Positions 497 through 48,576 of a stretch of DNA of 64,000 nucleotides are shown here, in pieces. Each line of letters begins with the position of its first letter. Position 1 is the stretch's first letter. A model generated the notes under the pieces. It did no database searches, had not been told where the DNA came from, and saw nothing but the letters and a program-made list of their open reading frames with translations. Both the position numbers and the translations under genes were made by a program. Source of the DNA: Aldersonia kunmingensis (GTDB taxonomy: Bacteria > Actinomycetota > Actinomycetes > Mycobacteriales > Mycobacteriaceae); contig NZ_LRRB01000179.1 of assembly GCF_001646865.1 (NCBI RefSeq), positions 1 through 64,000 on the forward strand, given 5' to 3'.

Positions 497-663
497 CTGA
501 GAGAATTCCTCCTCACTTATCTCATCCCCTGGCCGGTCGCCGACTCCACCCTCGGTAGGAGATCGAATGCCGCCCCCGGCAGGACGCGCCACCTGTACCT
601 CGCTTTGTACCGTCAGTCCAGGCACGCCAGACCCGGCCGAGGTAGGTGGTTTCACGGTTGGGT

Positions 664-684
664 TAACGGCGTTACGATAACGCC
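664..684. promoter_or_regulatory. Overlapping palindromes, probable TetR operator of the mmpL operon
   Basis: GGCGTTA (668-674) and TAACGCC (678-684) form a perfect 7-base inverted repeat with a 3-base spacer. A second palindrome, TAACG-G-CGTTA (664-674), shares its right arm. The array therefore reads TAACG, CGTTA, TAACG. It lies 27 bases before the MmpL start codon, where a repressor would block the promoter. The obvious candidate ligand is the TetR regulator encoded second in the operon. That assignment is inference. Confidence 0.55.
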
Positions 685-711
685 ACTAACTGATGGTCAG
701 GGGGACCTGCG

Positions 712-2988
712 ATGCTGGATCGCATTGCCTATTTCGTGATCGGGCGGCCGCGCGCCGTGCTGGTCGCCGCGTTGTTGATCGCCGTGGCAAGCGGACTGTT
801 CGGCTTCAGTGCGATCAGCCACATGAAGGCAGGCGGTTACGGCACCGAGGACGCCGAGTCGGCGCGCGCGAGCGAGATGCTCGTCGACAACTTCGGCGGC
901 GCGGAACCCAACCTGGTCTTCCTGGTCGATGCACCTGACGGCGTGGACAGCCCGGCTGCTGAGGCGGCGGGTGCGCACATCGTCGACACCCTGAAGTCCG
1001 CCGAGTACGTCGACCCCGCGTCGGTGCAGTCGTACTGGACCTCACCGTCCGACTTGGCCAGCGCGTTCCGCAGTCGCACCGCGCACACCGCCCTGATCAC
1101 GGCGCACGTCGACGGCGACGACACCACCGCACCCGCGCGGGCGACCGAACTGTCCGAGGACCTGACCGGTACCACCGACGGCATCACGGTCCGCGCGGGC
1201 GGCATGACGATGGCCTACCACGAGATCAACGATCAGGTCGCCAAGGACCTCGCGATTGCCGAGGCCATCGCGATCCCGATTTCGGCGATCGTGCTGATCC
1301 TCGTCTTCGGCAGCCTGATCGCCTCCCTGCTGCCACTGGTAATCGGGATCTTCGCCATCCTCACCACCCTCGCGATCCTGCGCCTGTTCACGCTGATCAC
1401 CGACGTCTCGGTGTTCGCGCTGAACATGACGACCGCGCTCGGCCTCGCGCTCGCGATCGACTACAGCCTGTTCATGGTCAGCAGGTTCCGCGAGGAACTC
1501 GCCGCGGGCCGCGATGTCGGGCCCGCCGTGGTCCGGACTGTCCAGACCGCGGGGCGGACCGTGCTGTACTCCGCTCTCGTTGTCGCGCTGTCGATGTCGG
1601 CGCTGATGGTCTTCCCCATCTACTTCCTGAAGTCGTTCGCCTACTCGGGCCTCGCGGTCGTCGCTGCGGCCGCGGTCGCCGCGCTCGTTGTGGTCCCGGC
1701 CGCGCTGATGGCGCTCGGCCACCGCGTGAACTCGCTCGACCTCCGTGAGCCGCTGCGCCGCCTGTTCCGGCTGCAACCGCGCCGGGAGGTGCCGCCGGAG
1801 GAGAGCCGTTGGTACGTCGGCGTCAACGCGGTGATGCGGCGTGCGGCGCCGGTCGCCATCGCGGCAATCGTCTTCCTGCTGTTCCTCGGTGCGCCCTTCC
1901 TCGGCGCCAAGTTCAGCTACCCCGATGAGCGGGTCGTTCCCGCGGCGGTCTCGGAAAGCCGCGCGGTCGGCGATTCGCTGCGGCAGAACTTCGATTTGAA
2001 CACCGGCGGCGCCACCATCGCGGTGCTGCCCGGCTATTCCGCCGGGTCCGGGCCGCTCGCCGACTATGCCGCTGAACTGTCCGAGGTGCCCGGAATCTCC
2101 GCGGTCACATCGAGTGCAGGCACGTACATGGCAGGGGCGCGAGTCGCGTCCCCACTGCCGGAAATGGCGAACGAGTCCGGGACCTACCTACGGATCGTCA
2201 GCGACTCGGACCCGTTCGGCAAAGCCGCCGCAAGCCAGCTCGAGGCGGCGCGCGCCGTCCCGGCACCGGGCGAGGTGCTGTTCACCGGACCCGCTGCGGC
2301 CAACCATGATTCGCTCAGCGCGCTCGGCAGCAGGCTGCCGCTCGCACTTGGCCTGATCGTGGCATCGACACTCATCGTGCTGTTCCTGTTCACCGGCAGC
2401 GTTGTCCTGCCCATCAAGGCGGTCCTGCTCAACACGCTGTCGTTGTCGGCGGCGTTCGGCGCGATGGTCTGGATCTTCCAGGAGGGCCACTTCTCCGACC
2501 CGCTCGGCTTCACCCCCACCGGTTACCTATCGCCGACCATGCCGCTGCTGATGTTCTGCCTGGCCTTCGGCATGTCGATGGACTACGAGGTGTTCCTGCT
2601 GTCCCGAATCCGGGAGGAGTGGCTGCACTCCGGCCGAACCACAGAGGACAACACGCATGCCATCGCAATGGGCATCGCGCGGACCGGCCGAATCTTCACT
2701 GCCGCAGCGGTGTTGATGGCTATCGTCTTCATCGCCATGATCACCGCGCAGGTCTCCTTCATGAAGATGTTCGGGCTCGGCCTCGGCATCACCGTCCTCG
2801 TCGATGCGACTCTCATCCGCGGCTGCCTCGCGCCGGCGATGATGCACCTCATGGGCCGGGCGAACTGGTGGGCACCGAAGCCGCTGGCACGGCTGCACGA
2901 GCGCTTCGGCCTGCGCGAGCACGACGCACCCGAGGACGAGCAGCCCGTGGCCGACGAGCGTGTGCCAGTGGGCCAAGGAACCTCCTGA
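712..2988 (+). CDS. MmpL-family RND lipid transporter
   Basis: A 758-residue inner-membrane transporter of the MMPL/RND superfamily, which uses the proton gradient to move lipids or lipid-like compounds outward. The protein has the family's duplicated plan: one N-terminal transmembrane helix, a periplasmic domain of about 150 residues, five more helices, then a second copy. The paired proton-relay motifs are present as Asp250-Tyr251 (DYSLFMVSRFREE) and Asp624-Tyr625 (MDYEVFLLSR). A GGGGG ribosome binding site precedes the ATG. It is not MmpL3, which lies at 45583. It heads an operon with a TetR regulator, an acyl-CoA ligase and a thioesterase, which suggests an acylated substrate. The substrate itself is unknown. 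Confidence 0.92.
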   Translation: MLDRIAYFVIGRPRAVLVAALLIAVASGLFGFSAISHMKAGGYGTEDAESARASEMLVDNFGGAEPNLVFLVDAPDGVDSPAAEAAGAHIVDTLKSAEYVDPASVQSYWTSPSDLASAFRSRTAHTALITAHVDGDDTTAPARATELSEDLTGTTDGITVRAGGMTMAYHEINDQVAKDLAIAEAIAIPISAIVLILVFGSLIASLLPLVIGIFAILTTLAILRLFTLITDVSVFALNMTTALGLALAIDYSLFMVSRFREELAAGRDVGPAVVRTVQTAGRTVLYSALVVALSMSALMVFPIYFLKSFAYSGLAVVAAAAVAALVVVPAALMALGHRVNSLDLREPLRRLFRLQPRREVPPEESRWYVGVNAVMRRAAPVAIAAIVFLLFLGAPFLGAKFSYPDERVVPAAVSESRAVGDSLRQNFDLNTGGATIAVLPGYSAGSGPLADYAAELSEVPGISAVTSSAGTYMAGARVASPLPEMANESGTYLRIVSDSDPFGKAAASQLEAARAVPAPGEVLFTGPAAANHDSLSALGSRLPLALGLIVASTLIVLFLFTGSVVLPIKAVLLNTLSLSAAFGAMVWIFQEGHFSDPLGFTPTGYLSPTMPLLMFCLAFGMSMDYEVFLLSRIREEWLHSGRTTEDNTHAIAMGIARTGRIFTAAAVLMAIVFIAMITAQVSFMKMFGLGLGITVLVDATLIRGCLAPAMMHLMGRANWWAPKPLARLHERFGLREHDAPEDEQPVADERVPVGQGTS

Positions 2989-3668
2989 TGAGCACTGCAC
3001 GTCAACGGGCGCCGCGCGGGTCGGGCAGTCGTCTCCGCGGCGAGATCCTGGACGCGACAAAGGATTTACTGGCCCGCACCGGCGACGCGCACGACGTGTC
3101 GATCCGCGCGGTCAGCGACCTGGTCGGGGTGACCGCGCCGTCGATCTACCGCCACTTCGCCGATAAGGACGCGCTGATCGACGCCGCGGTCGCGGACGTG
3201 ATTTCCGATCTCGATGCGGTCATGCAGGCGGCCGTCATCGACGAAGTCGGTCCGCTGCATCGGCTCCGCGCCCAGGGCCTGGCCTACGTTCGGTTCGCCC
3301 GCGAGCACCCCGAGCACTACCGCCTGGCGACCATGGAATGCGGCGAGGGCGTCGGCGAGGTGGACCAGGTGCTCGGCAGTGCGGCCTTCTCGCATTTCCT
3401 CGACACCGTCACCGAGTGCATCGCTGCCGGTCTCTTCGCCGAACAGGATCCCCTGCCGGTGGCCATGGAAATGTGGGCGGCCGCGCACGGCATCGCCTCC
3501 CTGCTGATCGCCAAGCCGTACCTGCCCTGGGGCGATCCCGAAGTGGCCGCGGATCGGGTGCTGAAGTCGGTGTGCGCCGGCCGCATCCTCGGCGATCTGC
3601 TCGGCGACGACGCCGACCCCGACGACCTGATGGGCTGGCTGGTCGAGCAGCGCCGGGTGACCAAGTGA
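2988..3668 (+). CDS. TetR family transcriptional regulator
   Basis: A 226-residue protein whose ATG overlaps the TGA of the mmpL gene by one base (TGATG), so the two are translationally coupled. The N-terminal helix-turn-helix is clear: VSIRAVSDLVGVTAPSIYRHF, with the usual YRHFADKDALIDA continuation into helix 4. The C-terminal half (FAREHPEHYRLATM, then a MEMWAAAHGIASL helix) matches the TetR_C_13/WHG type of ligand domain. Its place inside the operon suggests that it represses mmpL and the downstream genes through the palindromes at 664-684. It probably senses a fatty acyl compound, which is inference from the neighbours. Confidence 0.88.
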   Translation: MSTARQRAPRGSGSRLRGEILDATKDLLARTGDAHDVSIRAVSDLVGVTAPSIYRHFADKDALIDAAVADVISDLDAVMQAAVIDEVGPLHRLRAQGLAYVRFAREHPEHYRLATMECGEGVGEVDQVLGSAAFSHFLDTVTECIAAGLFAEQDPLPVAMEMWAAAHGIASLLIAKPYLPWGDPEVAADRVLKSVCAGRILGDLLGDDADPDDLMGWLVEQRRVTK

Positions 3669-3703
3669 ACGGGCCCTCTGGACAGGCCGCGTAGAAAGTA
3701 CGT

Positions 3704-5296
3704 GTGAGTCACGACACCAGGCATGACATGGGCGGCTCGCTGGCGCCCGGCAGCGGCATGACGATGAGCGACCAGGTTGCCCGGCACGCTCGCAGCATCC
3801 CGGATGCGGTTGCGCTGCGGCACGAAGGCGCACAGCTCACCTACCTCGAACTCGACGGCCGGGTGAACCGGCTCGCGCACGCCCTGCGCGACCGCGGCGT
3901 CAACAACGGGGACCGGGTGGCAGTGCTGGCGCTCAACGGCCTCGAACCAATCGAGACCTTCCTCGCCTGCGCGCGCCTCGGTGCCATCTGCTCCCCGCTG
4001 AACTTCCGTTCGGTCGCTGCCGAGGTCGGCTACATGCTCGGCAACTGTGGCGCTCGGGTGCTCGTGGTCGACGCCGGGCTCCTCGATGTCGCACTCGAAG
4101 CCGTCACGGAGGCACCCGCGGTGCTGGCTGGGCTGGTCATCGGTGGCCCTGCAGCAACCGCGCCGACCGGGTTCGACGCGTACGAGACGGCACTTGCCAC
4201 GTCCTCTGCGGACCCGATCGCGGTAGCCGTGGACGAGCGCGCTCCCGCGTTCATCATGTACACCTCCGGCACGACCGGGCGGCCCAAGGGCGCGGTGCTG
4301 TCGCACTACAACCTGTACGTGCAGACGACGAGCCGGATCGCACACGTGGGCCTGCCCACCGAATGCCGTACGTGGCTCGTAGGCACCCCGCTGTTCCATA
4401 TCGCCGCGATGTCCGCGATCCTTCCCGCGTTTCTCACCGGCGGTCGTGCTGTGGTGACCAAGTCGGGTGCGTTCGACCCTGAACAGATGCTGGATCTGCT
4501 TGCCCGGGAACGAATCTCGTCGTGTTTCCTGGTCCCGTCGCAGTGGCAGGCAATCTGCTCGGTGCCCGATATCGCCGACCGCGACCTGTCTGCACTGAAG
4601 ATGATCGCGTGGGGCGCGGCGCCGGCATCGACCACCCTGCTGCGCAAGCTGCTCGAAGCGTTCCCCCAGGCGCAGCTGAGCACCTCCTTCGGCCAGACCG
4701 AATGCAGCCCAATCACCTGCGTGCTGCGCGGCGAGGACGCGGCCCGAAAAATCGGCTCGATTGGCACGCCCCTGCTCAACGTCGAGGTACGGGTCGTAGA
4801 CCTGGACATGAACGACGTTCCGCCCGGCGAGGTCGGCGAAATCGTCTACCGCGGCCCATCAGTGATGACCGGCTACTGGAACAACCCGGAGGAGACCGCC
4901 AAAGCCTTTGCGGGTGGCTGGTTCCATTCCGGCGACCTGGTGCGTCAGGACGACGACGGTTACCTCTACGTCGTGGACCGGCTCAAGGACATGATCATCT
5001 CCGGCGGGGAGAACGTGTACTGCGCCGAGGTGGAGGACATCGTGGCCGGGCATCCCAAGGTGTCCGAGGTGGCCATCGTCGGGGTGCCGGACGAGCGCTG
5101 GGGCGAGGTGCCGCACGCGATCGTGGTGCCGATCCACGCCGCCGATCCGCCGACCGCCGACGAGATCGAGCAGTGGTGCCGGGACCGGCTGGCCGGTTTC
5201 AAATGCCCACGGAAGCTGACTGTGCTCACCGAGCTGCCCAGAAATGCGAGCGGCAAGGTGCGCAAGACGGACCTGCGGGTGCTCGTTCGTGGCTGA
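3704..5296 (+). CDS. Acyl-CoA synthetase (FadD-like, AMP-binding ANL enzyme)
   Basis: A 530-residue ANL-superfamily ligase that would activate a carboxylic acid, probably fatty, to an acyl-adenylate and then to acyl-CoA. Visible motifs are the P-loop YTSGTTGRPKG near residue 190, the FGQTE motif, the hinge GDLVRQDDDGYLYVVDRLKD and the C-terminal lysine in NASGKVRKTDLR. The start taken is GTG 3704, 35 bases after the tetR stop. In-frame ATG codons about 8 and 18 codons further in are possible alternatives. The thioesterase gene follows after 22 bases. A ligase-thioesterase pair next to an MmpL pump suggests a lipid made or recycled by the operon. Confidence 0.9.
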   Translation: MSHDTRHDMGGSLAPGSGMTMSDQVARHARSIPDAVALRHEGAQLTYLELDGRVNRLAHALRDRGVNNGDRVAVLALNGLEPIETFLACARLGAICSPLNFRSVAAEVGYMLGNCGARVLVVDAGLLDVALEAVTEAPAVLAGLVIGGPAATAPTGFDAYETALATSSADPIAVAVDERAPAFIMYTSGTTGRPKGAVLSHYNLYVQTTSRIAHVGLPTECRTWLVGTPLFHIAAMSAILPAFLTGGRAVVTKSGAFDPEQMLDLLARERISSCFLVPSQWQAICSVPDIADRDLSALKMIAWGAAPASTTLLRKLLEAFPQAQLSTSFGQTECSPITCVLRGEDAARKIGSIGTPLLNVEVRVVDLDMNDVPPGEVGEIVYRGPSVMTGYWNNPEETAKAFAGGWFHSGDLVRQDDDGYLYVVDRLKDMIISGGENVYCAEVEDIVAGHPKVSEVAIVGVPDERWGEVPHAIVVPIHAADPPTADEIEQWCRDRLAGFKCPRKLTVLTELPRNASGKVRKTDLRVLVRG

Positions 5297-5318
5297 GGCC
5301 CCGGACTAGCCTGCGTTC

Positions 5319-6107
5319 ATGGAGTCGTTCTACGTCCGCGATCCCGCACATCCGGACCGCTACGAATCGACCGACCTGACCAGGGGTCCGTGGTCCCCCG
5401 ACGCACAACACGCCGGGCCACCATCTGCGCTGATCGCGCACGTGATCGAGCGTTGCGAGCCGCGAGAGGGCTTCCAGGTCGGCCGGGTCGCAGTCGAGAT
5501 CCTCGGCCCGGTGCCACTGGAGCCGCTCACCGTCACCGCCCGCGTCGCACGGCCTGGCCGCAGCGTGGAGCTGATCGAGGCCGAGGTACGCACCGCAAAG
5601 GGTCCGGTGCTGCGTGCGAATGCCTGGCGTTTCCGCCGATCCGACCCGCCGCTCGACATCCCAGAGGCGATGCTGCCCAGCGGCGCGGTGCCCGGACCGG
5701 CAGAGGGCGTCGAGTCGCCGTTCCCCTCGCTGCAGCCCGTGGGCTTCCACACCGGCATCGACTACAGGTTCGTTAGCGGAACATTTCTCGAGCCGGGTCC
5801 CGCGACGTGCTGGATCCGGCTGCGCTATCCGATCGTGGCCGATACGACGCCGAGTCCGCTCGAGCGTGCTGTGGCCGCGGCCGATTCGGGCAATGGCGTG
5901 AGTTCGACGCTGGACTGGCGCGAATACCTGTTCATCAACACGGATCTCACGGTGTCGCTGCATCGGATGCCAGAGGGCGAGTGGGTATGCCTGGATGCGG
6001 TGACGTCGCCGCAGCCGCATGGGATAGGGCTTACAGAGACCGCGATGTACGACGAAATCGGGCCGGTGGGGCGCGCGACGCAGACGTTGCTGCTCGGCCG
6101 CCGCTGA
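5319..6107 (+). CDS. Acyl-CoA thioesterase-like protein (TesB/4HBT_3 type)
   Basis: A 262-residue protein that fits the two-hotdog thioesterase-like superfamily. The N-terminal hotdog contains the family's GPWSPDAQHAGPPSALIAHVIE segment, with the long central helix. The strands RVAVEILGPVPLEPLTVTARVARPGRSVELIEAEV follow. The C-terminal hotdog ends in GIGLTETAMYDEIGPVGRATQTLLLGRR. Such enzymes hydrolyse acyl-CoA thioesters in the cytoplasm. It is the last gene of the mmpL-tetR-fadD operon and lies 22 bases after the ligase. Its specificity cannot be read from sequence. Confidence 0.85.
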   Translation: MESFYVRDPAHPDRYESTDLTRGPWSPDAQHAGPPSALIAHVIERCEPREGFQVGRVAVEILGPVPLEPLTVTARVARPGRSVELIEAEVRTAKGPVLRANAWRFRRSDPPLDIPEAMLPSGAVPGPAEGVESPFPSLQPVGFHTGIDYRFVSGTFLEPGPATCWIRLRYPIVADTTPSPLERAVAAADSGNGVSSTLDWREYLFINTDLTVSLHRMPEGEWVCLDAVTSPQPHGIGLTETAMYDEIGPVGRATQTLLLGRR

Positions 6108-6272
6108 GACAAAAGGCGGTTTCGTATTGCCGCCGGGTCGGGGGTCTGGCGGCAACACGAAACCATTCTCGTTGTCGGCGCGGACGCGATCGGCGTTACA
6201 TACCGAGCAAAACTATTTTCGAATCGGTTGCTGGGCCATCGTCTGGGGTACAGACTCGACAGGGTGACTGCC

Positions 6273-7295
6273 ATGCAACTAGGGATGGTTGGCCTGGGCC
6301 GGATGGGCGCAAATATAATCCGGCGAATCCTCGAGGACGGCCACTCGGCGGTCGTCTACGACACCAATCCCGACGCCGTGAAGGAACTCGAAGCCATCGG
6401 CGCGACCGGCACAACGACATTGCCGGATTTCGTCGCTGCACTCGAAAAGCCGAGGGTCGCGTGGGTAATGATCCCCGCCGGCATCACGACCAAGGTCATC
6501 GAGCAACTAGCCGAACTCCTCGAGCCCGGCGACATCGTCATTGACGGTGGCAACAGCCGCTACCACGAGGACATCAAGCGCGCGAAGGCGCTGTCCCCGA
6601 AAGGCTTGCACTACATCGACATCGGCACATCGGGCGGCATCTTCGGCCTCGAGCGCGGCTTCTGCCTCATGGTCGGCGGGGAGACCGAACCCGTGCACCA
6701 CATCGAGCCGCTGCTGAAATCGATCGCTCCCGGCGTCGAGTCCGCACCGCGAACCCCCGGGCGTGAGGGCGAGCCGTCGCCTGCCGAACAGGGCTATCTG
6801 CACTGCGGCCCAGCCGGCGCAGGGCACTTCGTGAAGATGGTGCACAACGGCATCGAGTACGGCGCGATGGCCGCCCTGGCCGAGGGCCTGAACATCCTCA
6901 ACCAGGCCGATATCGGCGCCCGGTCGACGGGTGAGTACTCGGCGGAAGAGACCCCGCTGGAACAGCCGGAGCTCTACCAGTACGACATCGACATCCCCGA
7001 GGTCACCGAGGTGTGGCGGCGCGGCTCGGTGGTCGCGTCCTGGCTACTCGATCTCACCGCGGCCTCGCTGTACGCCGATCCCACCCTCGAGCAGATGGGC
7101 GGACGGGTCTCCGACTCCGGTGAGGGCCGCTGGACGGTGGACGCGGCGCTGGACGAGGGCGTTCCGGTGCCGGTGCTATCGACCGCGCTGTATCAGCGCT
7201 TCTCTTCGCGCGGCAATGCGCTCTACGCCGACAAGGTGCTCTCCGCGATGCGGATGGCCTTCGGCGGGCACCACGAATTGCCCAAACCGAAGTAG
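6273..7295 (+). CDS. gnd: 6-phosphogluconate dehydrogenase, decarboxylating (short NAD-type)
   Basis: Converts 6-phosphogluconate to ribulose-5-phosphate and CO2 in the pentose phosphate pathway. The 340-residue chain is the short form, which often uses NAD+, rather than the 470-residue NADP+ form. It opens with the dinucleotide fold LGMVGLGRMGANI and an acidic residue after strand 2 (VVYDTN), which favours NAD+. The substrate motif DGGNSRYHED and the catalytic segment GAGHFVKMVHNGIEYG follow. I chose ATG 6273; an in-frame GTG at 6264 is equally possible because neither has a strong ribosome binding site. A hairpin follows at 7314-7337. Confidence 0.93.
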   Translation: MQLGMVGLGRMGANIIRRILEDGHSAVVYDTNPDAVKELEAIGATGTTTLPDFVAALEKPRVAWVMIPAGITTKVIEQLAELLEPGDIVIDGGNSRYHEDIKRAKALSPKGLHYIDIGTSGGIFGLERGFCLMVGGETEPVHHIEPLLKSIAPGVESAPRTPGREGEPSPAEQGYLHCGPAGAGHFVKMVHNGIEYGAMAALAEGLNILNQADIGARSTGEYSAEETPLEQPELYQYDIDIPEVTEVWRRGSVVASWLLDLTAASLYADPTLEQMGGRVSDSGEGRWTVDAALDEGVPVPVLSTALYQRFSSRGNALYADKVLSAMRMAFGGHHELPKPK

Positions 7296-45583: not shown

Positions 45584-48576
45584 TGTTCGATAGTTGGGGA
45601 AACATCGTCTACCGCTTCCGATTCGGTGTAATCGGCCTGATGGTTGCCGGGCTGCTCGCGCTCGGCGCCTACGGGCTCGGGCTCGAGAAGCACCTGAGCC
45701 AGAGCGGCTGGGACGACCCCGGCTCCGAATCGGCGCAGGCCGCCCGCCTGGCCGACGAGACGTATGGGCGCGACCATGGCTCCGATGTCGTCGTGCTCTA
45801 TACCGCACCGCCCGGTAAGACTGTCGACGATCCGCAGTTCAGCGCCGCGATCGTCAACAATCTGAACAGCCTGCCGCGGGAGCACCCGGACCAGATCATC
45901 GGCGTCAACGTGTCGTACTGGAAGACCGAGACGGGCCAGCAGGCCCCGCTTGCGGACAAGACGAAGCAACATGCGTTCGCGACGGTCGGCATCAAGGGCG
46001 ACAACGACACGGAACAGACCGAAAACTTTCGCGAGGTCCGCGACGCCTTCTATATCGACGGCATCGATGTGCAGCTCGCCGGTCTGCAACCAGTGGCAGG
46101 CACGCTGAACGACACCATGGCGCAGGACGTCCGGCGCATGGAGTTGCTCGCCATCCCCGCGGTCGCGGTGTTGCTGTTCTTCATCTTCGGCGGCTTGGTT
46201 GCCGCTGCACTGCCGCTCATCGTCGGCGGGCTCACCGTGGTCGGCGCCTGGGGCATCGTCCGCTTCATTACCGAATTCACCGAGGTCAACGCATTCGTCT
46301 CACCCGTGGTGTCGCTGATCGGCCTCGGCTTGGCGATCGACTACGGACTGTTCATCGTGAGTCGCTTCCGCGAAGAGATTGCGGAGGGCCACACGACCGG
46401 TGACGCCGTGCGCCGCTCGGTAATGACAGCAGGCCGCACCGTCGTGTTCTCGGCGACGATGATTGTCGCCAGCCTCGGCGGTCTGTTGATCTTCCCGCAG
46501 GGCTTCCTGAAGTCGGTGGCCTACGGCGCGATCGCGACGGTCAGCCTCGCCGCCCTCACCGCTGTGACCGTGCTGCCCGCGATTCTCGGCATCCTCGGCC
46601 CGCGCATCGACATGCTCGGCTTCAAGTGGCTGCGCAAGACCAAGACCGCCGAGGAAGTCGAGAGCGGTTTCTGGGGCCGCATCACCCGTCAGGTGATGAA
46701 GCACCCGTTGCGATACGCGATTCCGATCGTTGTCGGCCTGTTGCTCCTGATCATCCCGGTCAAGAACATCACCTTCGGTGGCATCAACGAGCGCTACCTA
46801 CCACCGGACAACTCGACCCGACTTGCGCAGGAGGAGTTCGACCAACTCTTCCCGCTGCGTCCCACCGAGCCGATCAAACTGGTTGTCACCACAGAAAACT
46901 CACGCTCTGTTGGGCAGATCCGGCAGCAGGCCAACCAGGCCCCCGGGCTTGCGTCGGACTTCGTGCTACCGACATCACAGACGAAGGACAACGTCTGGAT
47001 TCTGTCGGGGACGCTGGAGGAACGGAACAACGCGCAGCCAACGATCGACTATCTGCGATCGATGGCAGTACCGGCCGACGCCACGATGCTCGTCGGCGGC
47101 ACACCGGCGATCGAACGCGACAGTATCGACGCGCTGCTCGACAAAATGCCGTGGATGGTCTTGCTCGTGTTGTTGGTGACAACGCTGCTGATGTTCCTGA
47201 CGTTCGGATCGCTGGTTTTGCCGATCAAAGCCGCTTTGATGAGCGCACTGGGTCTCGGTGCGACGCTTGGCATTTTGACGTGGATATTTGTGGACGGTCA
47301 TGGCGCGGGGATTCTCAACTTCACGCCGGAACCGATCATGGCACCGGTGTTGGTGTTGATCATCGCGATCATCTACGGCCTATCCACCGACTACGAGGTG
47401 TTCCTGCTCTCTCGCATGGTCGAGGCGAGAACCATGGGCGCGAGCACCACCGAGGCGATTCGGATCGGCACCGCGCACACCGGCCGGATCATCAGTGCGG
47501 CAGCGGTGATCCTGATCGTTGTGACCGGCGCGTTCGGCTTCTCCGAACTGGTGATGATGCAGTACATCGCGTACGGCATGATCGCGGCCCTGATCATCGA
47601 CGCGACGCTCATCCGCATGTTCCTCGTGCCCTCGGTGATGAAACTGCTCGGCGACGACTGCTGGTGGGCACCCGCCTGGATGAAGCGAATCCAGGCGCGG
47701 ATCGGGCTCGCGGAGCCGGTCCTGGTGACCGGCTACCTCCCGGACGATGTCGTCGACCTCACCCGCACTGCCGTTGCCGCAAAGCCGAAGCCGCCGCCCC
47801 GCCGCCGTCGCCGCAACGAGCCGGAGATCCCCGCCGACGACACATCGACAGTGGCGTTCGCGGCGGTCGCGACGCTCACCGAGGAACGTCCCGCAGCGGA
47901 ACAGCCGCCTGCCGAGCAGCAGTCCGACAATGCGGACGACGCTCCCACCGAGAAACATGCGCGGATTGAGCCGGAACCCACAGTCGAGCCGGAATCGCCG
48001 GCGCCGAAACGGTTCTCGCTGTTCGAGAAACCGCAGGGCCCTGCGCAGCCGCAGCAACGGCACCGCGCTGCGGAAAACATTCCGACCCCGCAGACGCCGG
48101 GTGCCGAGCCGACGCCGAGCGCCGAGCAGAGGCCGTCCGCCGAAGAAACGCCGGACGTGGACCCTCAGCCGCCCGTGCAGCAACAGCAGCAGCCGGCGAA
48201 GCGGCAGCAGTCGCTGTTCGAGAAGCCAGAGCCGCTGACCCGGCCGCATCAGCCCGCCATGGACGACACGCCAACTGTGCAAGCGCCGCGTGTCGAGCCT
48301 GAGCCGCCCGCAGACCAAGCACCACAAGCCGAGCAGTCGCGCGCCGAACAGCCGCGGTCCGAGCAGAAGCCGCTAACCCAGGCGCCTGCGACAGAGCAAC
48401 GGGTATACGCCTTCCGCGGCATCAAGCCCGCCGACGAGGACGTCGAAAACTGGATCGCTGCGCCGGCGCCGGAAGAGAAGCGCAACGGCGACAGCGACGA
48501 CGAACCGCACGGTCGGCATCAGCGGACGGATAAGAGCCTTAGCGTCTCGGATCTAATGCGACGCAAGGGGCGTTAG
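45583..48576 (+). CDS. mmpL3: MmpL3, trehalose monomycolate exporter
   Basis: A 997-residue RND transporter that flips or exports trehalose monomycolate across the inner membrane, essential in mycobacteria. It has twelve transmembrane helices with two periplasmic porter domains. The proton-relay pairs are Asp253-Tyr254 (AIDYGLFIVSRFREE) and Asp603-Tyr604 (STDYEVFLLSRM). The MmpL3-specific stretch MFLVPSVMKLLGDDCWWAPAWMKRIQ follows helix 12. The C-terminal 280 residues are disordered, Pro/Glu/Gln-rich and carry two SLFEKP repeats. They end in the motif SLSVSDLMRRKG. The start is GTG 45583 (GGGAG at 45571), overlapping the NYN stop by one base. The second periplasmic domain looks about 40 residues shorter than in M. 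tuberculosis. Confidence 0.96.
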   Translation: MFDSWGNIVYRFRFGVIGLMVAGLLALGAYGLGLEKHLSQSGWDDPGSESAQAARLADETYGRDHGSDVVVLYTAPPGKTVDDPQFSAAIVNNLNSLPREHPDQIIGVNVSYWKTETGQQAPLADKTKQHAFATVGIKGDNDTEQTENFREVRDAFYIDGIDVQLAGLQPVAGTLNDTMAQDVRRMELLAIPAVAVLLFFIFGGLVAAALPLIVGGLTVVGAWGIVRFITEFTEVNAFVSPVVSLIGLGLAIDYGLFIVSRFREEIAEGHTTGDAVRRSVMTAGRTVVFSATMIVASLGGLLIFPQGFLKSVAYGAIATVSLAALTAVTVLPAILGILGPRIDMLGFKWLRKTKTAEEVESGFWGRITRQVMKHPLRYAIPIVVGLLLLIIPVKNITFGGINERYLPPDNSTRLAQEEFDQLFPLRPTEPIKLVVTTENSRSVGQIRQQANQAPGLASDFVLPTSQTKDNVWILSGTLEERNNAQPTIDYLRSMAVPADATMLVGGTPAIERDSIDALLDKMPWMVLLVLLVTTLLMFLTFGSLVLPIKAALMSALGLGATLGILTWIFVDGHGAGILNFTPEPIMAPVLVLIIAIIYGLSTDYEVFLLSRMVEARTMGASTTEAIRIGTAHTGRIISAAAVILIVVTGAFGFSELVMMQYIAYGMIAALIIDATLIRMFLVPSVMKLLGDDCWWAPAWMKRIQARIGLAEPVLVTGYLPDDVVDLTRTAVAAKPKPPPRRRRRNEPEIPADDTSTVAFAAVATLTEERPAAEQPPAEQQSDNADDAPTEKHARIEPEPTVEPESPAPKRFSLFEKPQGPAQPQQRHRAAENIPTPQTPGAEPTPSAEQRPSAEETPDVDPQPPVQQQQQPAKRQQSLFEKPEPLTRPHQPAMDDTPTVQAPRVEPEPPADQAPQAEQSRAEQPRSEQKPLTQAPATEQRVYAFRGIKPADEDVENWIAAPAPEEKRNGDSDDEPHGRHQRTDKSLSVSDLMRRKGR

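Follow-up and report, generated by a model that had tools for sequence, protein, structure and literature searches.

A conserved mmpL-tetR pair with a four-half-site operator in Mycobacteriales and its enlargement by acyl-CoA enzyme genes in Aldersonia

We analyzed a window of 64,000 nucleotides from Aldersonia kunmingensis, which lies at the beginning of contig C10 in a draft genome of 5.6 Mb. Near its beginning, an operator is followed, head to tail and on the plus strand, by mmpL, tetR, fadD and a thioesterase gene, encoding an exporter, a TetR-type regulator, an acyl-coenzyme A (acyl-CoA) ligase and an acyl-CoA thioesterase. The comparison of genomes indicates that mmpL-tetR is a conserved and old unit, present in numerous soil actinobacteria and kept together where it occurs, and that the fadD-thioesterase half is a recent addition to this old pair in Aldersonia.

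Conservation of the mmpL-tetR pair and its operator

In a family sample of 301 genomes, the window TetR had a match at E <= 1e-40 in 88 (its own genome included), and a strong match was present in 54 of the 298 genomes of an order sample, 22 of which belong to two other families. At all 129 loci with a close TetR, mmpL was located directly upstream of tetR. These loci comprise the window, the 87 other family-sample loci (87/87, same strand) and 41 further loci (41/41), namely, the 22 from other families, 5 new ones from the own family, 13 reached via named Nocardia loci and 1 on a Tsukamurella plasmid. The named Nocardia loci gave 22 TetR matches, of which 13 were taken, 6 coincided in contig and position with genomes already covered and 3 were left out. 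The arrangement was not observed for weaker TetR relatives (35 to 40% identity), since mmpL was upstream in none of the 13 that were examined out of 29. A strong TetR match was absent from most of the sampled genomes (213/301 in the family sample and 244/298 in the order sample), although the family-sample scoring considered at most 9 candidates per genome and a genome without a match may thus hide one.

The operator core was equally constant, as it was found 5' of mmpL in all 125 loci with readable upstream DNA. In four of the 41 further loci the sequence stops within mmpL, which makes their operator unreadable; among the other 37, the core GNTANNNTANC was at most 110 bases upstream in 36 and 136 bases upstream in one (L261). 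In the window, positions 664 to 684 read TAACGGCGTTACGATAACGCC. A reading of the sequence alone (the sequence-only reading) had proposed a TAACG palindrome operator at this site, which is present but was under-described: the operator is really 29 base pairs long, contains four half-sites and overlies a -10-like sequence (Table 1). This sequence has the TANNNT form that is found in actinobacterial -10 elements. A generic sigma-70 promoter scan did not pick up the mmpL promoter and predicted nothing across positions 500 to 6400.

The perfect 7+3+7 palindrome alone is unremarkable, because about four are expected per 64-kb window by arithmetic (64000/4^7); position and conservation lift the operator above chance. 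For the 88 loci formed by the window and its 87 relatives, the best half-site match 5' of mmpL had a mean of 13.8 of 16 letters. The register was chosen as the best score to the half-site pattern, which favors those letters, so that the fair comparison is with identically scored sequences: dinucleotide shuffles had a mean of 8.4, with 7/4400 reaching the observed score, and a stretch inside mmpL scored 7.7. The 3' end of the operator was located 17 to 32 bases 5' of the used mmpL start in 76 of the 88 loci.

In the own genome, the 17-mer core and the 29-mer each had a single perfect match, at mmpL. With up to three mismatches to the 29-mer, the mmpL site was found in eight of nine genomes; no match was obtained in G146, where the operator is more divergent. 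All other 29-mer matches in these genomes had three mismatches (a single one in the own genome, two in G202), as compared to 0 to 4 per strand for a backward-pattern control. The 17-mer with up to two mismatches matched 11 places per strand of the own genome versus 48 for the control. The TetR protein looks like a single-target autoregulator, with more degenerate sites possible. A wider regulon controlled through the same operator was considered and rejected, as the extra 29-mer and 17-mer matches were no more frequent than those of the control.

Natural controls were provided by mmpL genes without tetR. Near thioesterase relatives, we found eight mmpL genes that are 52 to 61% identical to the window mmpL and have no tetR match in the examined stretch, two in Antrihabitans (L297 and L299) and six in five Nocardia genomes (L015, L019, L020, L031 and two in L047). 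Their upstream scores of 7, 9, 8, 8, 9, 9, 8 and 10 of 16 are at background level, and the core was present in one of the eight. Antrihabitans is the cleanest case for a loss of the operator with the absence of tetR. In all four Antrihabitans genomes with the thioesterase gene, this gene is 3' of mmpL; where tetR intervenes (two genomes), the operator is present with scores of 13 and 15, versus 7 and 9 in the two genomes that lack tetR. The one further genome of the genus sample, Aldersonia sp. NBC_00410, has the order mmpL-tetR-mmpL-fadD-thioesterase (second mmpL within L005 2873-8280). Its first mmpL has an intact operator and its second a decayed copy, with a score of 10 and no core; the two mmpL copies are 77% identical mutually, and each is about 80% identical to the window mmpL. 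Taken together, the tetR-less loci and the decayed NBC_00410 copy are the best evidence, comparative in nature, for TetR acting at the operator.

Three further observations concern the surroundings of the pair. The DNA 5' of the second mmpL of NBC_00410 is the counterpart of the upstream flank in the window. On the plasmid of Tsukamurella tyrosinosolvens (L256 2816-5687), the mmpL-tetR pair and an operator scoring 14/16 are neighbored by cytosine permease and methionine ABC transporter genes. The genes 3' of tetR vary by genus (L117, L112 and L159), and their putative products, read from sequence, are a short-chain dehydrogenase, a methyltransferase and a Bax-inhibitor-like membrane protein; these genes were used qualitatively only, because the simple gene caller missed tetR in many loci.

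The fadD and thioesterase genes and the encoded proteins

The sequence-only reading had described four packed genes with 1-, 35- and 22-base junctions, and our coordinates reproduce all three: the mmpL TGA and the tetR ATG overlap by 1 base (2988), the tetR stop and the fadD GTG are separated by 35 bases (3669-3703), and the fadD stop and the thioesterase ATG by 22 bases (5297-5318). Support was also obtained for its view of one compact unit behind the operator, with TetR most likely acting there and with a pump of a lipid-exporter family. In contrast, its own test, the recurrence of the four-gene unit in relatives, gave a negative result, as all four genes co-occurred only in the two genomes of Aldersonia and at none of the 127 other mmpL-tetR loci; a family-wide four-gene operon was rejected on this basis. 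The accompanying idea that the cell makes or recycles an acyl compound and exports it on demand is plausible for Aldersonia only, and its acyl part rests on family names.

Considered separately, fadD was found at none of these 127 loci and the thioesterase gene at two (L109 and L110; Antrihabitans), in the examined stretch and with the thresholds used. Thioesterase relatives at E <= 1e-60 were present in 30 of the 301 family-sample genomes (own included) and in 4 of 31 genera. The 43 loci found through the thioesterase contained an mmpL above 300 bits in eight cases and a fadD above 400 bits in a single one, the Aldersonia. The thioesterase of Aldersonia sp. NBC_00410 is 85% identical to that of the window. 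The closest fadD relatives outside the genus (64 to 66%) belong to four genomes of genus g11 (L190-L193) and are on contigs other than that of tetR. In 4/4 of these genomes the fadD relative is directly followed by a different MMPL gene, 24 to 26% identical to the window mmpL, an adjacency that lends slight independent support to a FadD-MmpL link. A 139-amino-acid protein is also encoded downstream of the fadD relative at the four g11 loci (4/4), and the one scanned had no Pfam match. In three genomes of genus g29 (L199-L201), the fadD relative makes up one half of a protein of 1044-1067 aa (amino acids) that consists of two FadD halves; the one scanned contained two AMP-binding stretches. An enoyl-CoA hydratase gene and a relative of acyl-CoA dehydrogenase are nearby.

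The Pfam cut-offs were exceeded for MMPL, TetR_N and TetR_C_33, AMP-binding and AMP-binding_C, and 4HBT_3 and 4HBT_3C, with 234.8 bits in two stretches for MMPL (cut-off, 20.5) and 40.5 bits for TetR_N (cut-off, 24). The nearest solved relative of the pump is MmpL3, the trehalose monomycolate exporter (8qkk, E 5.6e-96). Two Asp-Tyr motifs have a role in MmpL3, and the mmpL product has the same two, AIDYSLF (248) and SMDYEVF (622). The pump differs from MmpL3 in its 758 aa, versus the 992 positions of the MmpL3 model NF052608, and in its score of 400.5 bits, versus 1020.7 bits for the best MmpL3 of the genome. It missed the model cut-off of 1400 bits, but no gene of the own genome reached this value, so that the relative score is more telling. 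The C-terminal cytoplasmic domain of MmpL3 is absent from the mmpL product, whose match ends at position 767 of 992. The HAE3 exporter model TIGR00921 was also missed (116.5 of 351.9 bits). The own genome contains two better MmpL3 matches, at 45586-48573 of the same window (1020.7 bits) and on another contig (788.5 bits). The lack of the C-terminal domain, the score of 400.5 bits and these two better matches mark the mmpL product as an accessory MmpL3-like pump. The match at 45586-48573, the best of the genome, extends over positions 2-991 of 992.

The best relative of the fadD product is FadD5 (8r2q, 504 bits). The fadD product missed the cut-off of the FadD5 model NF005857 (600.5 of 733 bits) and met that of the general long-chain-fatty-acid-CoA ligase model PRK06187 (501.7 of 476). 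For the thioesterase, a double hotdog is indicated by 4HBT_3 and 4HBT_3C and by a predicted structure with a predicted local distance difference test (pLDDT) value of 94.3, whose best match was Escherichia coli TesB (1c8u, Foldseek E 7.9e-15) at an identity of just 14%; a profile search against solved sequences gave a best match of only E 0.22. The catalytic residues of E. coli TesB are Asp/Thr/Gln. In the thioesterase, D189, N207 and Q255 were invariant across the alignment (22/22 rows), with Asn at the motif position of the expected Thr. The structure model of TetR, obtained from a 3-row alignment (pLDDT 69.9), had generic TetR matches only, with template modeling scores of at most 0.49.

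Related systems, putative mechanism and alternatives

The weak sequence matches of the window TetR include the structure 5d18 (E 6e-7), which we take to be Rv1816. TetR proteins of the QacR/LfrR type are local repressors of pump genes, with an operator that lies over the promoter and has several half-sites, and the system described here is probably alike in these respects. It differs in that tetR is 3' of the pump gene and in the same operon, and in that the drug link of the former was not seen here. In a study on Mycobacterium tuberculosis (PMC6463170), Rv1816, Rv0302 and Rv3249c/AlkX are TetR proteins that bind the mmpL3/mmpL11 regions; the likeness is that of a TetR at MmpL pump promoters. 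These regulators of MmpL3-like pumps bind many places and act at a distance on several genes, whereas the window tetR is directly 3' of its own mmpL and would form a local switch with one clear genomic site and a defined operator. In bacteria with mycolic acids, MmpL exporters contribute to the construction of the outer membrane. With one clear site, a defined operator and tetR-less relatives as natural controls, the ligand, and through it the cargo, could be within reach of a simple reporter. TetR-autoregulated RND/MmpL exporters, with TetR beside its pump, are known already; new are the extent of the pair across the order, the operator with its four half-sites over the -10, the use of tetR-less relatives as natural controls and an addition of acyl-CoA enzymes that is specific to the genus. 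The open-licence literature that was searched, with subscription papers largely outside its scope, contained no description of the mmpL-tetR pair or its operator.

In the mechanism that we propose, TetR dimers would bind positions 662 to 690 and, since TACGAT (673-678) sits in the operator center, cover the -10, silencing mmpL and tetR, together with the fadD and thioesterase genes in the case of Aldersonia. Binding and repression of its own operon by TetR appear highly probable from the anatomy of the locus, its conservation and the loss of the operator in the absence of tetR. TetR would be released by a hydrophobic ligand, for which a long-chain acyl compound is the most likely candidate. 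In the above study (PMC6463170), palmitate makes the M. tuberculosis TetR proteins of the mmpL regions dissociate from DNA, and by analogy we give an acyl-type ligand about an even chance. The proton-driven RND pump MmpL would then move an acylated lipid to the envelope. Such a cargo is favored because the pump is nearest to MmpL3 and because fadD and the thioesterase gene encode acyl-CoA enzymes; for this export step, too, the balance is close to level. In Aldersonia, FadD would charge fatty acids to acyl-CoA and the TesB-type thioesterase would discharge acyl-CoA, so that the acyl-CoA pool and the pump may be set together, which is the least certain step. Overall, a negatively autoregulated exporter operon for an acylated-lipid pump, joined by FadD and thioesterase in Aldersonia, is a reading that we hold with middling confidence. 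More tentative is its extension to an acyl-lipid homeostasis switch of Mycobacteriales, a rather speculative scheme in which the TetR-MmpL pair, kept with its four-half-site operator across several families, has acyl-CoA enzymes plugged in by single genera and the Aldersonia circuit senses, charges or discharges (FadD/TesB) and exports an acyl compound.

Several points weigh against an acylated-lipid exporter under TetR control. Another report (PMC9430723) states that mmpL3 expression did not change upon deletion of an M. tuberculosis TetR to which control of mmpL3 has been ascribed. Three of the tetR-less Nocardia mmpL genes (L019, L020 and L031) may be paralogues rather than losses, because the same genomes have a normal mmpL-tetR pair, with a strong TetR match, elsewhere. 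With two genes of the genome matching MmpL3 better, mycolate is not a necessary cargo. Unless the ligase and the thioesterase have different substrates, their combination would waste adenosine triphosphate; moreover, neither is regularly associated with the pair (0/127 and 2/127 other loci), so that they say little about the pump elsewhere.

The chief alternative is a pump that responds to drugs or toxins and has two passenger enzymes; here TetR would sense a hydrophobic toxin or drug and MmpL would expel it. The usual drug-efflux layout has tetR beside its pump gene, as here, and both the maintenance of the pair without any fixed lipid enzyme alongside and its copy on the Tsukamurella plasmid are in agreement with xenobiotic defense. 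However, among solved structures the pump is closest to MmpL3 lipid exporters, acyl-CoA enzymes have joined the operon in Aldersonia, and the thioesterase gene adjoins mmpL in Antrihabitans, so we consider this explanation credible but unlikely. The four genes might also form two transcription units, with the operator controlling mmpL-tetR and a separate promoter, located within tetR or in the gap of 35 bases, driving fadD-thioesterase. The separate histories of the two halves and the second NBC_00410 mmpL, with its decayed operator copy between tetR and fadD, are consistent with this division, which is made improbable by the shortness of the gaps (35 and 22 bases) and by the blank promoter scan over 500-6400, even though that scan missed the mmpL promoter too.

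A different question is whether the palindrome is a site of TetR at all, or a plain promoter or another regulator's site, with TetR acting elsewhere. About four such palindromes are expected in 64 kb, and the center falls on a -10-like sequence, which would be conserved in any case. TetR residue 55 agrees with the central operator bases in 86/86 rows, but this match rests on only two changes on the tree (from which 2 of 88 mmpL rows with short reading frames were left out), and position 55 ranks 16th among the TetR columns by mutual information, 15 columns correlating more strongly. Against this, all four spaced half-sites are kept in 88 loci, beyond the -10 alone, and they fall to background 5' of mmpL genes without a neighboring tetR. 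We therefore regard a palindrome unrelated to TetR as very improbable and retain TetR repression at the operator.

Coordinates of the features and the downstream hairpin

The features of the operon and its flanks are compiled in Table 1.

Table 1. Features of the mmpL-tetR-fadD-thioesterase region, in window positions
Feature	Position	Strand	Description or basis
Weak -35-like TTTCAC, 17 bases 5' of the -10-like hexamer	650-655	+	Read from sequence
Operator, four half-sites GTTA-N5-GTTA-NNN-TAAC-N5-TAAC, 29 bp (base pairs)	662-690	+	Conserved 5' of mmpL, 88/88 first-set loci
Perfect 7+3+7 palindrome GGCGTTA-CGA-TAACGCC, inner operator	668-684	+	Sequence
-10-like TACGAT (TANNNT), operator center	673-678	+	TANNNT in same register, 88/88 loci
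Likely ribosome-binding site of mmpL, AGGGGG	699-704	+	Read from sequence
mmpL	712-2988	+	758 aa, MMPL/RND exporter, MmpL3-like branch, without MmpL3 C-terminal domain
tetR	2988-3668	+	226 aa, TetR_N + TetR_C_33 regulator
fadD	3704-5296	+	530 aa, GTG start, acyl-CoA ligase, nearest to FadD5
Thioesterase gene	5319-6107	+	262 aa, TesB-type (double hotdog) acyl-CoA thioesterase
Strong hairpin 3' of operon, without T-run, possible transcript end	6118-6164	+	Folding versus shuffles

The hairpin 3' of the thioesterase gene is part of a fold of -38.6 kcal/mol (z -5.0), and none of 200 shuffles was equally stable. It was not among the predictions of a terminator scan. In Aldersonia sp. NBC_00410 the hairpin is kept, with one paired T-A to C-G change, one pair-breaking change and an identical loop.

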